Source: an uncultured Spartobacteria bacterium
GTDB lineage: Bacteria; Verrucomicrobiota; Verrucomicrobiia; Chthoniobacterales; Terrimicrobiaceae
NCBI GenBank assembly: GCA_937888355.1
Contig: CALAPX010000181.1
Location: 1-43,906, forward strand
Length of the DNA stretch: 43,906 nucleotides
Direction: 5' to 3'
Shown here: piece after piece, positions 11,471 to 32,882 of the stretch
Position numbering within the stretch: the first letter of the stretch is position 1
How the letters are laid out: the number at the start of each line of letters is the position of its first letter
Translations under genes and position numbers: made by a program
The notes under the pieces: generated by a model
What the model saw: the letters and a program-made list of their open reading frames with translations, nothing else
Told to the model about the DNA's origin: nothing
The model's database searches: none

Positions 11471-11815
11471 GTGGCCCAACTTCGCTCGCAACGCCGCCGC
11501 AAAACCGAACACTGGAAGAAGGCCAACCTCGCTCTTCAAGGGTTGATCGCCGCCGGCGTGGTTCTGCTGTGTGTTTTTATTTTCTATCCCCAAATTGAAC
11601 GCCGCAACGCGTTGGCCCATCAATTGGAGAATGAGCGAGCCGCCCTGCGCGACGAGGAGAACCAGCGCGCTCTCCACCGCCGTGAAGTCCACCTGCTGGA
11701 GAACGATCCAGAATATGTCGAGATTATTGCCCGCGATCGAATTGGTGTAATGAAAGAAGGGGAAACAATTTTTCGCTTCGACACCCCCGCTCCGGACCTT
11801 GCTCCACGCGAATAG
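11471..11815 (+). CDS. ftsB: Septum formation initiator, FtsB/DivIC family
   Basis: A 114-residue bitopic membrane protein of the cell-division complex, where FtsB bridges FtsL and FtsQ. It has a basic N-terminal tail (RSQRRRKTEHWKK), one membrane span at about residues 22-42, a coiled coil (ERRNALAHQLENERAALRDE) and the family's C-terminal motif ENDPEYVEIIARDRIGVMKEGE. The start is GTG at 11471 with a possible AGGGA seven bases upstream. An overlapping ATG at 11469 is out of frame. It lies 59 bases before prfB, so the two may be co-transcribed. The gene symbol is assigned by family; DivIC would be an equal name. Confidence 0.85.
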   Translation: MAQLRSQRRRKTEHWKKANLALQGLIAAGVVLLCVFIFYPQIERRNALAHQLENERAALRDEENQRALHRREVHLLENDPEYVEIIARDRIGVMKEGETIFRFDTPAPDLAPRE

Positions 11816-11874
11816 TAGTTCTTTGGAACTCCCAGATTGCATGCGCGTGCAACCGTATCTATTGTTCCTTTTTA

Positions 11875-13015
11875 ATGACTGAGGAACTACAAAATTTGGA
11901 CACCTCCGCGATCAAAGGCCGTCTGGCTTCGATGCGGAGGTTTCTTTGACTTGCCCGCATTGACCCTCCGCCTGTCCGAACTTGAATCGCGCATGGCGGC
12001 ACCTGATTTCTGGGATCACCGCGAGCGGGCTCAGAAGGATGTCGCCGAGGTCTCTTCGATTCGGAATAAAATAACTCCTTTAGCTTCCCTCAAATCCCGT
12101 ATCGAGGATCTTGATGTGCTCCGCGAAATAGCCCTCGAGGAACCTGATGAAAAACGCCCGGCAGCGGCGGCTGAGGTTCTGACTGAGCTCGACTCGATAG
12201 TGAAGGCTTTGGACAAATTCGAGATCGCTGCACTTCTCTCGGGAGAACATGACAACTGCCCCGCATTTCTATCCATCCAAGCCGGTGCTGGGGGCACCGA
12301 ATCTTGCGACTGGGCTGATATGCTCTACCGCATGTATCAACGCTGGATGGAGCGGCATGGCCTCCAATTTGCCATCACGGACATTCAACTTGGCGACGAG
12401 GCAGGGGTGAAATCCGCCACGCTCCGCGTCACCGGTGAGAATGCCTACGGCTACCTTAAAACAGAAATTGGCGTGCACCGCTTGGTTCGCATCTCGCCAT
12501 TTGATTCCAACAAGCGCCGCCACACTTCGTTCGCCGGTGTCGATGTCGTGCCGGAAATTGAGGATGTCCCGGTCGAAGTGAACGAAGCGGACATCAAGCT
12601 CGACACCTTCCGCTCCGGGGGAAAGGGTGGCCAGAACGTGAACAAGGTCGAGACCGCCGTACGCCTCACCCACATTCCCAGCGGAATCGTTGTCGGGTGC
12701 CAAGCCGAGCGCAGTCAGGGCCGCAACCGCGAAATGGCCATGCAAATGCTAAAGGCGAAACTTTACCAGATCGAAGCCGACAAAAAACGCGCTGAGATCG
12801 ACCGCCATTATGGAGAGAAAGGCGATGTTGCCTGGGGCAACCAGATCCGGAGTTATGTCTTTCAGCCCTACCAGATGGTGAAAGATCTGCGCACTGGCGT
12901 GAAAACCGGCGATATTCAGGCCGTCATGGACGGCGACATTGATGCCTTTATCGAAGGCAAGCTCCGTGGACTCACATACAAAAAAGGCGCTGCAAACGAC
13001 GAAAACGACGATTAG
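11875..13015 (+). CDS. prfB: Peptide chain release factor 2 (programmed +1 frameshift)
   Basis: RF2 releases the peptide at UGA and UAA codons. The gene begins with ATG at 11875 and reads 24 codons to an in-frame TGA at 11947-11949. A +1 shift at CTTTGAC then continues from GAC at 11948 to TAG at 13015, giving 379 residues. The joined protein carries the stop-recognition SPF (residues 207-209) and the catalytic GGQ (251-253), nearly the same positions as in E. coli. The TTG at 11951 is therefore not a start. The gene is autoregulated: when RF2 is scarce, the TGA is read slowly and the shift is favoured. No Shine-Dalgarno sequence precedes the ATG. Confidence 0.96.
11936..11950 (+). promoter_or_regulatory. 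prfB programmed +1 frameshift signal
   Basis: GGAGG at 11936-11940, three bases (TTT), then the slippery CTT TGA C at 11944-11950. This is the canonical arrangement, in which an internal Shine-Dalgarno-like sequence three bases upstream of CTT pushes the ribosome forward by one base at the UGA. Spacing equals that in E. coli prfB. It also implies that this organism's 16S rRNA keeps an anti-Shine-Dalgarno sequence, although most starts in the window do not use one. Confidence 0.95.
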
Positions 13016-19888: not shown

Positions 19889-20635
19889 TCAGTCCTGCTG
19901 CGGAGGCATTACTTCTGGAGCGGCAGCATCTTCAGCCCGGGTGATTTCACAGTGCCCAAAAAACACCCCCCCCTTCTCAACAATCATCGATTTTGTTTTC
20001 ACCTGTCCCTCCAAGCGACCACCGCTGTGAACTTGAACGGCACCTCGGCAGACAACATCGGCAAGCATGGTTCCTCTCACTGCCAAGTGATCGGTTTCCA
20101 TCTGCTGCCCGCATGAAAAGGTAGTTTTTTTTTCGATCAGAACGGCCCCTGCAGTCACACGACCGGCACATGGTTTTACCATCGCAAGACGCACCTCCCC
20201 TTCACAACGGAGATGCCCATGGATTCCCCCCTCGATACGTGCTGACCCACAGACGATCCATTGGTTGTTCAGTGACCCCTTCTCGGAAATCCTTAATGCT
20301 CCGCGAGTATCAACCGCCCGAGATGAGGGTCCGGTGATTTTCACCTCAATCAACTCAATCGGAGCATAACAACCGGGACAGATCGTGCTCTGGGCTTTCT
20401 TGGAGACTCGGTGGGTGCGAGCACACTTGAGACACGCAACCTCCTTCCCTGCGTCCTGTTTGGCGCCGGCGAACGATGGTAGTTCGGTGACGCCGCCCGC
20501 ACGCACCCCTTCTGCCGACGCCTCGTAATGCGCCCCGCAGGAGCGGCAATTTGTCGAGACAAGATGGGGTGGCTCAAGCTGCACGAAACCGCACACCGGA
20601 CACCGGAAAGGTGTTTTCGGCGGGGTAGACGGCAT
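19889..20635 (-). CDS. Bactofilin-like polymer-forming protein with N-terminal double zinc ribbon
   Basis: A 248-residue protein with two parts. Residues 1-95 carry two four-cysteine sites, C12/C15/C30/C33 and C68/C71/C86/C89, each a zinc-ribbon pattern. Residues about 110-235 form a repetitive beta-helix-like region with short G-spaced turns (GSARIEGGIHGHLRCEGEV, AGAVLIEKKTTF, GRLEGQVKTKSMIVEKGG, FFGHCEITR), typical of bactofilins, which polymerise into filaments without nucleotide. Zinc binding is inferred from the cysteine spacing. The gene lies 9 bases after the second bactofilin gene and is surely co-transcribed with it. A likely role is a scaffold for envelope or cytoskeletal machinery. 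Confidence 0.8.
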   Translation of the reverse strand: MPSTPPKTPFRCPVCGFVQLEPPHLVSTNCRSCGAHYEASAEGVRAGGVTELPSFAGAKQDAGKEVACLKCARTHRVSKKAQSTICPGCYAPIELIEVKITGPSSRAVDTRGALRISEKGSLNNQWIVCGSARIEGGIHGHLRCEGEVRLAMVKPCAGRVTAGAVLIEKKTTFSCGQQMETDHLAVRGTMLADVVCRGAVQVHSGGRLEGQVKTKSMIVEKGGVFFGHCEITRAEDAAAPEVMPPQQD

Positions 20636-20644
20636 GGGAACGCC

Positions 20645-21088
20645 TTAGGAGTTGTCCTCGCTCGAGTCGTTCTGACTGGAGATAGTCGGGGCAGTAGGCG
20701 TGGTCAGACGGGAGGTCGACTTGCCTGGCGTCACCTCGGAATGTCCGATAAATGTAGCTCCCTCTTCGATAATGATTCGCATCGCTTTGAGATCACCAAG
20801 AAGTTCGGCGTTGGATTTGAGCTCACAGCGTTCCTGCACAGTGACATTGCCGTTTACTGACCCATGAATCGTTACGGACTTGGTCCGGATTTCCCCTTTA
20901 ACAACCGCGTTTTTTCCAAGCGTCAGCGTTCCTTCAGAGATAACCTCCCCATCAAGTTTGCCATCAAAAATCATGTCGGTATCGAATTTGATCGTCCCCT
21001 TCAGCTCTACGTCGCTGGTGAGGATGTTTTTAGAGGTGGACGCGGAGGGCGATTCTGAGACGAGCGAGGTGATGTTGTTGAGGTTCAT
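20645..21088 (-). CDS. Bactofilin (polymer-forming cytoskeletal protein)
   Basis: A 147-residue protein of the classical bactofilin type: a short polar N-terminal tail, a central right-handed beta-helix domain (about residues 20-115) with repeats such as GTIKFDTDMIFDGKLDGEVI, TLTLGKNAVVKGEIRTKSVTI, and NGNVTVQERCELKSNAELLGDL, ending in GATFIGHSEV, and a proline/serine-rich tail. Bactofilins form stable filaments that position cell-wall enzymes or other partners. The start is ATG at 21088; a TTG four codons upstream is also in frame. First gene of a two-gene operon with the zinc-ribbon bactofilin, divergent from the histidine kinase. Confidence 0.88.
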   Translation of the reverse strand: MNLNNITSLVSESPSASTSKNILTSDVELKGTIKFDTDMIFDGKLDGEVISEGTLTLGKNAVVKGEIRTKSVTIHGSVNGNVTVQERCELKSNAELLGDLKAMRIIIEEGATFIGHSEVTPGKSTSRLTTPTAPTISSQNDSSEDNS

Positions 21089-21210
21089 GCTGCTTACCAA
21101 GCTACACGGACGATCCGTGCATGGTCAATCTGCGGAAATAGGAAACTTTCGGGGCTTCTTGACGATCCAAACCAGTCTGGAAATTGGCTTTGCAATTGAC
21201 GCAATCGGGC

Positions 21211-22857
21211 ATGGCGCATACGTTGGATGGCCGCCTTCACAACGGAATGTCGAAACCCTCAGCAGCTCCCTCCCACCTACGACATCACACGGTAAAGGCC
21301 CCCATAAATGGCGGTCATGCGTTAGATGTCAAACGGGATGAGTCACTTCACCTAGTTTGGGAAATGCTTCCAACCGTCTTTTGGAAATTGTCCCATCGCG
21401 GTGTTGTGCTCTCCGCAAACCGTGCCAGCGAGGAACTGATTGGCTTCCCCTCTTCTGAGTTTATCGGGCGTTCACTGGAGGATATCCTTATTGAGTCAAT
21501 TGATCTGGATTTTCTTATTCACCGCCTTGATACATCCGGCACTATACGAAATCTCGAGACCTGCATTCGCCGCAAGGATGACTCTACTCGCAATATTTTG
21601 ATCGATGCCGCATTGATCGATGATGGTGCTGGCTTGTTAACGATTCATTGCCTCGTCAGGGATAATTCCATCATTAAAAAAACCGATGTTCACCTCCGCG
21701 AACAGGCCGGCTATTTTACCAAGTCTGCGGAGGCCTTGATCATGCTTGATGATCAAGGGGTAGTGAGGCACTGGAACAAGGGGGCGGAGGAACTGTATCA
21801 ACTTCCTTCCGTCAATATTGTTGGACATCCCTATCCTGCGGGACTCAGTAGCAATCCCGACGCCGATGCGCTGGCCTTTAAATCCGTTCTTCAAGGCCTC
21901 GAGTGGACTGGCCGGTTGGCGCACACCACCTCCTTGGGAAACCCATTGGAGATCGAATGCCGTTGGGTGCGATTGCCGGGCGTGATTGCCGGGGCCGGCA
22001 GCATCCTTGTTATTGCAGAGGACGCTGCTGGCCTGCGCGAACTTGAGGAAGCCCGCCTCCGTGATCAGCGTCAGGAATGCCTTGGGACTCTTGCTGGAGG
22101 AATCGCCCATGATCTTAACAATATCCTTCAGCCGATTTCTATCGCGATTGACCTCTTCCGTGCCCGCACAGCAGACACCGAGAGCCAGGAAATGCTCGAT
22201 GTTGTAGATGAAAACCTCCGCCGCGCCACCGACCTTGTAAGGCAGATTCTCTCTTTTACATCCGGCGTTGGCACCGAACGCCGCCGCATCGAGATAGCTA
22301 TACTATTTAAGGACATTGCCAGCTTTATCCGGCAGGCTTTTCCAAAGACAATCCATCTTCATATGACCTTGGATGAGGGATTGGATCTGGTTCTGGCCGA
22401 CCAAACGCAAGTTGAACAGATTCTCATCAATCTCTGCGTCAACGCGCGCGATGCGATGCCAGAAGGGGGGCGACTCCGCTTAGAAGCCTGCAATTTTTAT
22501 GTCGATGAGGGATTTTCCAGCCGCCAATCTGGCTGCAAGCCGGGCCCCTACGTGCGACTCACCGTGGGAGACACAGGCCTTGGCATTCCTCGTAAAATAA
22601 GAACAAAAATATTTGAGCCGTTCTTTACCACTAAAGGACCGGAAAAAGGAACCGGGCTGGGCTTGGCTACCACGCTCGGGATTGTGCGCAGTCATGAAGG
22701 CTTCATCACGCTTGAAACCGAGGAGGGATGTGGCACCTCATTCCATGTTTTCCTCCCTGCATTACACAGCCCCCCCCCCCCAATCCACTTCAGTCCTCCC
22801 CTTCCAGCGCTCCACCGAGCTTTCCGGTGGAGGAGAATCTATCCTCCTCGTCGATGA
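21211..22857 (+). CDS. PAS-PAS sensor histidine kinase, kinase part of a split hybrid kinase
   Basis: A soluble histidine kinase without membrane spans. From ATG 21211 it has PAS domain 1 (about 45-155), PAS domain 2 (about 165-285), a HisKA dimerisation helix with the phospho-acceptor H300 in GGIAHDLNNIL, and an ATPase domain with the N-box NLCVNARDAMPEGG, DTGLGIP and KGTGLGLAT. The natural end at HVFLPAL is followed by the run of 12 C and then 25 out-of-frame residues (ending RWRRIYPPRR) before a stop. One base fewer in the run would fuse it to the receiver domain that follows. In-frame TTG at 21184 is an alternative start. It is divergent from the bactofilin operon. Confidence 0.9.
   Translation: MAHTLDGRLHNGMSKPSAAPSHLRHHTVKAPINGGHALDVKRDESLHLVWEMLPTVFWKLSHRGVVLSANRASEELIGFPSSEFIGRSLEDILIESIDLDFLIHRLDTSGTIRNLETCIRRKDDSTRNILIDAALIDDGAGLLTIHCLVRDNSIIKKTDVHLREQAGYFTKSAEALIMLDDQGVVRHWNKGAEELYQLPSVNIVGHPYPAGLSSNPDADALAFKSVLQGLEWTGRLAHTTSLGNPLEIECRWVRLPGVIAGAGSILVIAEDAAGLRELEEARLRDQRQECLGTLAGGIAHDLNNILQPISIAIDLFRARTADTESQEMLDVVDENLRRATDLVRQILSFTSGVGTERRRIEIAILFKDIASFIRQAFPKTIHLHMTLDEGLDLVLADQTQVEQILINLCVNARDAMPEGGRLRLEACNFYVDEGFSSRQSGCKPGPYVRLTVGDTGLGIPRKIRTKIFEPFFTTKGPEKGTGLGLATTLGIVRSHEGFITLETEEGCGTSFHVFLPALHSPPPPIHFSPPLPALHRAFRWRRIYPPRR
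22770..22781 (+). repeat. Homopolymer of 12 C at the kinase-receiver junction
   Basis: Twelve consecutive C between the ATPase domain and the receiver domain. With 12 C the kinase frame stops at 22857. With 11 C the codons would read AGC, three CCC, CAA, TCC and continue into the receiver domain without a stop. This is either a phase-variable tract, a site of polymerase or ribosome slippage, or an error in the assembled sequence. Confidence 0.95.
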
Positions 22858-23224
22858 CGAGGCCACCGTTCTCAAGGTCATGCAGCGATCGCTCGAAAAA
22901 TCCGGCTACAAGATTTTCACTGCGGAGGATGGCGAGCAAGGATTGGAAGTCTTCTCCCGACATGGTGATGAAATCCGCCTTGTCATCACAGACATGGCCA
23001 TGCCTGGCATCGATGGACCTGGTATGATTTCCGCACTCCGGAAATTTGACAAGGATGTAAAAGTTATCTGCACAAGCGGCCTCACCACCCACTCAAGCAT
23101 GGAATCCCTTGCGACGCTTGGAGTGGAAACCGTTCTATCAAAGCCCTGCACCTCAAAGACAATTCTCCAAGCCATCAAAAAAGCTCTTGGAGAGCAGCCC
23201 TTGGCCCATCCAACTGACCTGTGA
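22782..23224 (+). CDS. Receiver (REC) domain, displaced C-terminal part of the hybrid histidine kinase
   Basis: Reading in the frame +1 to the kinase gives a complete response-regulator receiver domain: ILLVDDEATVLKVM with the acidic pair, the phospho-acceptor Asp in VITDMAMPGIDGPG, the T/S position in VICTSGLTTHSS, and the conserved Lys in VLSKPCTSKTIL. The domain follows the kinase as in ordinary hybrid kinases, joined by a linker of about 25 residues. It has no output domain. The same frame has an ATG at 22745, inside the kinase, so a separate 159-residue protein cannot be excluded, but that start has no support. The stop TGA at 23222-23224 shares its A with the start of the next gene. Confidence 0.85.
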
Positions 23225-31106: not shown

Positions 31107-31522
31107 GAGCAACAGCCACCAGGGTTGCAGCCACACCCTGAAGCAGCCGCAGCGGGCAATTCCTCGTCAGTCGAAATGAGGATCGTTTCAAGATGAATCT
31201 GTTGGAGGGCGAGCTGTTCCTCCGCCTGCTGAAGGAGTCCCAAAGCCAGCGGGCTGGGCTGGTGGCGCGTGCGCAGCTGAATTTCCACTCCCTTGCCAAG
31301 AAATTGGGGAAATGCCTCTGCCATTTCGCCATCAAGAATAAACGATGCGTAGGCATTTAGTTTTTCCTGAAGTTGGAGGATTTGATCCTCACCGCCAGTC
31401 CATGGGCGAGTCTCATACATGGCAAGCACAAGAAGGTCACGCCGCTTGTCGTGGGCGAATGCATCGAGGACGGATGGGTGGGCGACCCCCATTGGTCGGG
31501 AAGATGTTTCTGACGGGCTCAT
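31103..31522 (-). CDS. DUF6572-like protein with cysteine-rich C-terminal tail
   Basis: A 139-residue soluble protein. Residues about 18-115 (SVLDAFAHDKRRDLLVLAMY, then LQLQEKLNAYASFILDGEM, then GKGVEIQLRTR) look like the DUF6572 pattern of a strand, a Trp, and an LQxKLNxY helix. The last residues are GCGCNPGGCCS, four cysteines in ten positions, which could bind a metal. The gene is the last of the minus-strand cytochrome oxidase operon, 39 bases after the DUF420 gene, where copper handling is a natural theme. Metal binding and any link to the oxidase are inference. The domain call is by eye. Confidence 0.6.
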   Translation of the reverse strand: MSPSETSSRPMGVAHPSVLDAFAHDKRRDLLVLAMYETRPWTGGEDQILQLQEKLNAYASFILDGEMAEAFPQFLGKGVEIQLRTRHQPSPLALGLLQQAEEQLALQQIHLETILISTDEELPAAAASGCGCNPGGCCS

Positions 31523-31561
31523 GGTTTTATTAGCGGCGGGTTGAGTGGTTGAGGCATGGTC

Positions 31562-31996
31562 TCATACGACTTTAGGGAACCATTGGTAGAGCATGAAATA
31601 AACGAGCACTCCTGTTATGGACACATAAAACCAAAGAGGGAATGTCCACCTCGCCCAAGAGCGGTGGCGTTCGAAGCGGCCTTTGAGTGCATGTGTCATG
31701 GTTACTAGGATCAGCGGCACAATCACGATGGCCAGAATGATATGCGACACGAGCATGCCATAGTAAAAGGTCCGCCAAATCCCCTCCCCTCCGAAGGGCG
31801 TGTGGACGCCTTGGACGAGGTATTTGTGGAGAACGTAAAAGAACAAAAAGACGCATGACACAGCAAATGCCCCGAGCATGCAAAAACGATGCGCGATCTT
31901 ACGCTCAATTTTGATGCAGATGAACCCCGCTAGGAGAAGAACCGTCGCAATAGCGTTCAACCCAGCATTCAACGCCGGAAGATCCGTGACCGTCAT
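31562..31996 (-). CDS. DUF420 membrane protein (oxidase-cluster type)
   Basis: A 144-residue membrane protein with four predicted spans (about 10-28, 42-60, 78-100 and 118-138). The motif HKYLVQGVHTPFGGEGIWR and the following YYGMLVSHIILAI and HRSWARWTFPLW stretches, with conserved histidines near the membrane, are typical of DUF420 proteins, found in cytochrome c oxidase clusters such as that of Bacillus (CtaM, YozB relatives). A role in oxidase maturation is likely from context. The ATG overlaps the stop of the 81-residue gene by ATGA. Confidence 0.85.
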   Translation of the reverse strand: MTVTDLPALNAGLNAIATVLLLAGFICIKIERKIAHRFCMLGAFAVSCVFLFFYVLHKYLVQGVHTPFGGEGIWRTFYYGMLVSHIILAIVIVPLILVTMTHALKGRFERHRSWARWTFPLWFYVSITGVLVYFMLYQWFPKVV

Positions 31997-32238
31997 GGAT
32001 TATTGCGCACGCGGTCCAATTGCCTGCAGGTAGAAATTATATAAAACGTCATGCCTCCGACTATCATCAACACGATCGCTAGCATTCCCAAGACTCCCCA
32101 TGAGAGGGCGATGCCAGCGGTGATGGTTTGCGGCTCCACCGGCCCACTGGAGCCAGGTTGACGACACCCAACGCACCCAGCGGCTTCATGAATGAGTGAA
32201 AAGAGAATCGCGAAAACAATGGCTGGAATGTGCTTCAT
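31993..32238 (-). CDS. Small membrane protein with CxxC motif in the oxidase operon
   Basis: An 81-residue protein: a signal-like N-terminus (MKHIPAIVFAILFSLIHEAA), then GCVGCRQPG, a short polar loop, one membrane span near residues 45-68, and a basic end (CRQLDRVRNNP). The CVGC pair would face the periplasm and could bind copper or act in thiol exchange, but this is inference. It is placed between sco and the DUF420 gene, 17 bases after the former and overlapping the latter. I do not recognise a family. The overlap and operon position support a real gene. Confidence 0.7.
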   Translation of the reverse strand: MKHIPAIVFAILFSLIHEAAGCVGCRQPGSSGPVEPQTITAGIALSWGVLGMLAIVLMIVGGMTFYIISTCRQLDRVRNNP

Positions 32239-32255
32239 TTTATAATTGTATCTTT

Positions 32256-32882
32256 TTACTGCAAGAGGCCCCCGATATCGACCATGAGCTTTTGGACGAC
32301 CTCTGGATCTACTCCGTCTTGATAGCTGCGAAGCCAGCCATCTGCATCAACGAGAACAAAGCGCGTGGAGTGGGCGGGCGTGCCGTCTGGTTCCTTGGCA
32401 ACAGGTTGCAGAAGACCTTTCACGACGATTTTATCAATGTCCTCCTGAGACGTGGATAAAAGCTTCCAAGAGGCTGGATCCGCTCCTTGGGCGAAGCCAT
32501 ATTTCGCAAGGACCTCTGGTGTGTCGTATTCGGGATCCACCGTAAAAGATACCAGCACCACTTGATCGCGAACTTTCCCCAGCTTGGCGTTTAGGTCCGC
32601 CATGCGTGTGGTGATAAGCGGGCAGGGGCCCTTGCACCTCGTAAAGATAAAATTAGCAACCCAGATTTTTCCTTTTAGATCATCAAGAGTGAGCGCTTTT
32701 CCGGTCTGGTCTTTGATGTTGAACGGAGGAACTTTTGCAATTTTTTCCAGCTGCGGCTGATGCGTTCTCGGCGTAATGGATTTAAGGCTGATATAGGCGG
32801 CCGTGAGCAAGGATGCAGCAACAGCAAATGCAACAACCCAACCGAGAGGTGAAATCCCCCGGCGCGGCACGCGATCAGACAT
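32256..32882 (-). CDS. Sco1/SenC copper chaperone for cytochrome oxidase
   Basis: A 208-residue protein anchored by one N-terminal span (residues 12-33) with a thioredoxin-like domain outside. The copper ligands are C83 and C87 in TRCKGPCPL and H171 in AHSTRFVLVD, matching the CxxxC...H set of Sco proteins that load the CuA site of oxidase subunit II. Its ATG at 32882 overlaps the end of the subunit III gene by 8 bases. This gene implies that a CuA-bearing subunit II exists, though it is not encoded in this window. Confidence 0.92.
   Translation of the reverse strand: MSDRVPRRGISPLGWVVAFAVAASLLTAAYISLKSITPRTHQPQLEKIAKVPPFNIKDQTGKALTLDDLKGKIWVANFIFTRCKGPCPLITTRMADLNAKLGKVRDQVVLVSFTVDPEYDTPEVLAKYGFAQGADPASWKLLSTSQEDIDKIVVKGLLQPVAKEPDGTPAHSTRFVLVDADGWLRSYQDGVDPEVVQKLMVDIGGLLQ

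Follow-up and report, generated by a model that had tools for sequence, protein, structure and literature searches.

An established example of a sensor kinase gene switched by a C run is bvgS of Bordetella pertussis, in which C6 encodes the full-length protein and C7 a truncated one (PMC1891110). Frame breaks of similar appearance may also be artefacts: in a GeneTack survey, breaks that were supported by BLAST but remained unclustered were expected to be mostly sequencing errors, not genuine indels (PMC3711429). Here, we describe a hybrid histidine kinase gene from an uncultured Spartobacteria bacterium in which kinase and receiver lie in different frames on the two sides of a run of 12 C. As in bvgS, a sensor kinase gene carries a C run in which a one-base change shifts the frame (PMC1891110); in B. 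pertussis, however, the two alleles have each been isolated and the truncated protein is non-functional, whereas the present locus is known from one consensus, has a longer run, and breaks after an intact kinase core. As in the GeneTack singletons, the break is supported by homology and absent from all orthologues examined, and we found no difference from that class. The domain order is that of CckA-like PAS-HisKA-HATPase-REC kinases, and CckA models are the best NCBIfam matches of both halves, with scores of 215 and 79 that are far under the cut-off of 1000; unlike CckA-like kinases, the kinase has no predicted membrane helices.

The window, i.e. the whole stretch of 43,906 nucleotides that was analysed, is contig C181 of a draft assembly of 2.62 Mb in 404 contigs. 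The sample comprised one consensus sequence, with one genome per species.

Architecture of the locus

The kinase open reading frame spans 21184 to 22857 (557 aa); its true start is probably the ATG at 21247, as judged by alignment with the sequence MSNTSAPLP of the nearest relative. Pfam matches in this frame are PAS, a partial second PAS, HisKA and HATPase_c, and the signature motifs GGIAHDLNN, NLCVNARDAM, DTGLGI, EPFFTTK and GTGLGL were read directly. The +1 frame yields a full-length Response_reg match (Pfam) and the motifs LVDDE, VITDMAM, CTSG and LSKPC. The original prediction, which had described kinase and receiver as whole but in different frames, with catalytic motifs intact on both sides, agrees with these matches and motifs on either side of the C run. 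Its interval 22745-23224 corresponds to the receiver frame from an ATG at 22745, which falls upstream of the tract within the kinase FHVF codons.

The run consists of exactly 12 C (C12); no C/G run in the window is longer, and the genome of 2.62 Mb has no other of this length. When the whole window was segmented into seven states by codon usage, the frame changed within one gene at this position. The kinase frame (codon starts 1 mod 3) ends with a stop at 22855-22857, and the receiver frame (2 mod 3, +1 relative to the kinase) with TGA at 23222-23224. Read with 11 C, kinase and receiver join in one frame (...FLPALHSPPPQSTSVLPFQRSTELSGGGESILLVDDE...); read with 12 C, the kinase is followed after the tract by a tail of about 25 codons that contains HRAFRWRRIYPPRR and is out of frame with the conserved gene. 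Coordinates are given in Table 1.

Table 1. Positions of the kinase, the C run, the receiver and the adjoining gene in the window
Feature	Position	Strand	Remark
Kinase frame, PAS-PAS-HisKA-HATPase_c	21247..22857	+	Open reading frame from TTG 21184; start by alignment with L003
ATG in receiver frame, just upstream of tract	22745..22747	+	GGAGGG about 17 nt before
Run of 12 C, kinase-receiver linker	22770..22781	+	11 would keep one frame
Linker remainder and receiver domain, +1 frame	22781..23224	+	Without in-frame start between tract and domain
Downstream partner gene, two predicted membrane helices	23221..24162	+	Start overlaps receiver stop (GTGATG)

The protein encoded by the downstream gene has no match in Pfam or NCBIfam; homologues follow the kinase in many, not all, congeners. 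As the start of this gene overlaps the receiver stop, it is likely to be translationally coupled to the kinase-receiver gene, and the 12-C frame would uncouple it. Its product may act with the soluble kinase as a membrane-bound sensor. On the other side, two bactofilin genes on the minus strand (19889-21100) are divergent from the kinase; the nearer of them keeps its position in some congeners (L004, L016, L017), and glyA is found there in G010.

Comparison with congeneric genomes

The kinase gene is present in all 15 congeners. Two of these loci end at contig ends and were left out of the fusion count; in the other 13, kinase and receiver lie on one contig and form a single open frame throughout, so that HisKA, HATPase_c and receiver belong to one polypeptide, as defines a hybrid kinase, while the window has all of these domains in two frames. 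The gene is best read as an ordinary soluble hybrid histidine kinase of the architecture PAS-PAS-HisKA-HATPase-REC, which is one protein in the genus. A scan of genome contigs gave only L052, from a Terrimicrobiaceae MAG, as nearest relative, along with distant kinases.

The linker, counted from FLP to the receiver motif E-x-I-L-x-VDDE, measures 24 or 25 aa in the twelve congeners analysed by script and 25 aa in L014, which was counted by eye. Its sequence is hardly conserved across the congeners; its length is kept. In the window, the linker read with 11 C has 25 aa, in line with the original prediction that removal of one C would yield one continuous PAS-PAS-HK-REC protein whose linker is normal. 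None of the twelve linkers measured by script contains a C run of more than 5, and none of the 13 congeners with the whole locus has a split between kinase and receiver or a long C run there. This comparison of sequences marks the fused hybrid kinase as ancestral and as the form that has been maintained, because all 13 whole congeneric loci are read in one frame, with a linker of 24-25 aa and no long C run; the C run appears as an acquisition of this lineage, and among the genomes compared only this one has the run and the split. The original prediction had also envisaged relatives without the C run in which the two proteins are always separate: the run is indeed absent from the relatives, and the domains are, on the contrary, always fused.

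Protein identity to the nearest relative, G010, is 69% for the kinase and 78% for the receiver (dN 0.13, dS saturated). Against the same genome, third codon positions are saturated and first and second positions conserved in both kinase and receiver, with no sign of decay of either half, as had been predicted for this gene. Both halves being conserved, the break, if real, is therefore very recent or reversible.

C/G tracts in the genome and the genus

C/G runs of 8, 9, 10, 11 and 12 occur 43, 17, 3, 0 and 1 times in this genome, so that C12 is the longest and not far beyond the tail of the distribution. The 64 tracts of at least 8 were checked for the frames on both sides, except for a few at contig or locus edges. 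Gene breaks were found at 0 of 43 tracts of 8, 1 of 17 of 9, 0 of 3 of 10, and at the single tract of 12. That only longer runs break genes fits length-dependent slippage in cells, PCR or assembly. A generally indel-ridden assembly was ruled out, as no 8-base C/G tract breaks a gene. Six frame changes flagged by script at tracts were, on inspection, gene boundaries, and L172, a candidate broken gene, turned out to be the HI0933-type gene, which is intact and had been read on the opposite strand. A mutator background was rejected, since MutS is full length and MutL is present (cut by the contig end).

The second break lies in an FAD/NAD(P)-binding oxidoreductase gene, where a C9 at C345:456-464 (L188, L193; G000) has one C too many, so that the protein reads ...LLLTPP in one frame and continues in the next with PAQSSALL.... 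The orthologues in congeners are single frames of 335-340 aa and read ...LLLTPPPAQSRALL....

Across the genus, C/G runs of at least 10 occur in 13 of 16 genomes, mostly in frame, intergenic or at gene ends. Among those inspected in these 13 genomes, none divides two domains of one gene, so that genus-wide contingency loci found no support. Two congeners have runs of 11 and 12, at L031 (G015:C52:31701) and L049 (G004:C48:61018), near the end of response-regulator or hybrid-kinase genes, with only a few codons left to the stop; slippage there would change the C-terminal tail only. In the draft itself, a G10 at G000:C261:2541-2550 (L134) is located just upstream of the start of a gene for a glycine-rich, PEP-CTERM-like extracellular protein and is a possible expression-level contingency tract.

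Origin of the split

In the assembly, the C run is genuine and so is the kinase gene; the split is probably not a functional feature. Most probably it reflects a chance surplus of one base at a C run prone to slippage: the variable linker would have drifted into a C run in this lineage, and the assembled consensus carries one C extra. The C345 case, an unrelated gene with an equal +1 C defect, favours assembly error or unselected slippage for the window break too, and as an unclustered break supported by homology the split falls in the class expected by the GeneTack study to be sequencing errors. Two unrelated +1 C breaks fit a slippage error of library or assembly as well as unselected mutation, whereas the one in C345 would be unexpected under a dedicated receiver switch. 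The excess may be a wrong tract length in the draft consensus, which we consider a serious candidate short of being probable, and a real, unselected slipped-strand allele is placed on the same footing. Runs of 9 are usually called correctly by short-read assemblies; for this reason, and as no 8-base run breaks a gene, at least one of the two breaks may be a real mutation. A point against an incidental excess is the position of C12 at a domain boundary, where a change in length would give a meaningful product.

A rival reading takes the tract as a phase-variable switch: through replication slippage, 11 or 14 C would give the hybrid kinase and 12 or 13 C a kinase lacking the receiver, and translation of the downstream membrane-protein gene would be coupled or uncoupled at the same time. 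A 12-base C run falls within the range of known phase-variable tracts; this one has sufficient length for slippage and coincides exactly with the kinase-receiver junction, between two halves that are both intact and under constraint, and C-run switching is established for a sensor kinase in bvgS. Whether selected or not, an allele of 12 C in cells would yield a receiver-less kinase with some 25 residues after the tract, and ribosomes would terminate about 363 nt short of the downstream gene, which is likely to be coupled. Contingency loci combine a long frame-altering tract within a gene, as given here by C12 and the single frame at 11 C, with a tract kept at variable length in relatives, where instead no congener has a C run at the linker (longest in 13 congeners, 5). 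With C12 not far past the tail of run lengths in the genome, the same +1 C defect in the C345 oxidoreductase, and no inspected run of at least 10 in 13 genomes of the genus that splits a gene between domains, we regard a phase-variable switch as unlikely. Its specific form, in which slippage adds or removes the receiver while the kinase core stays intact, so that the output alternates between phosphorelay and free kinase instead of the gene being turned off, with the membrane partner coupled or uncoupled, is rated a little more doubtful still; literature searches turned up no precedent for a hybrid kinase that loses its receiver by phase variation. Helicobacter HP0165/arsS was considered as a C-tract kinase parallel and set aside, as the literature consulted on it showed no such tract.

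Programmed recoding and true gene fission are, even taken together, very improbable. In the former, slippage of ribosomes or RNA polymerase along the C run, at a fixed frequency, would yield kinase and kinase-receiver from one mRNA. The shift needed is +1 and the kinase frame has three CCC codons; tRNA-Pro is known to slip by +1 on CCC-C, and its UGG isoacceptor in E. coli is reported to be inherently shift-prone (PMC4519876). Programmed +1 sites are recognised by a frame break and a slippery site conserved in orthologues, but here all orthologues are single-frame, and programmed slippage lacks support, as tract and split are absent from every congener. Moreover, no stimulatory element was seen at C12, whereas prfB (release factor 2, RF2; window 11877-13015) has the AGG...CTTTGAC signal, in its classical programmed +1 form AGGTTTCTTTGAC at 11938-11950. 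This gene, which a naive ORF caller starts at 11951, is the only other same-strand frame change in the window beyond a plain gene boundary; apparent frame switches at 31158-32265 and about 11813-11935 resolved into small separate genes and prfB. Recoding at C12 is accordingly a very slender prospect, and fission, by which the lineage would have settled on separate kinase and receiver proteins, is the least credible explanation. The receiver-frame ATG preceding the tract would offer a start, but GGAGGG is too far away for a well-placed ribosome-binding site, and with no start codon after the tract either, an independent receiver start was rejected; no congener has split genes, and the ancestral linker length is kept when the linker is read with 11 C. 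Of the three origins offered by the original prediction, programmed slippage is thus unsupported, assembly error is favoured alongside an unselected allele in view of the C345 break, and phase variation is left with a small share.

Implications

If the one-base excess is erroneous or a chance allele, the locus calls for a model of one hybrid kinase, and annotation pipelines would misreport it as a kinase and an orphan receiver. If the tract were a true switch, a signalling protein of an environmental Terrimicrobiaceae-type bacterium would be phase-variable in its output, outside the pathogens in which such variation is usually studied.
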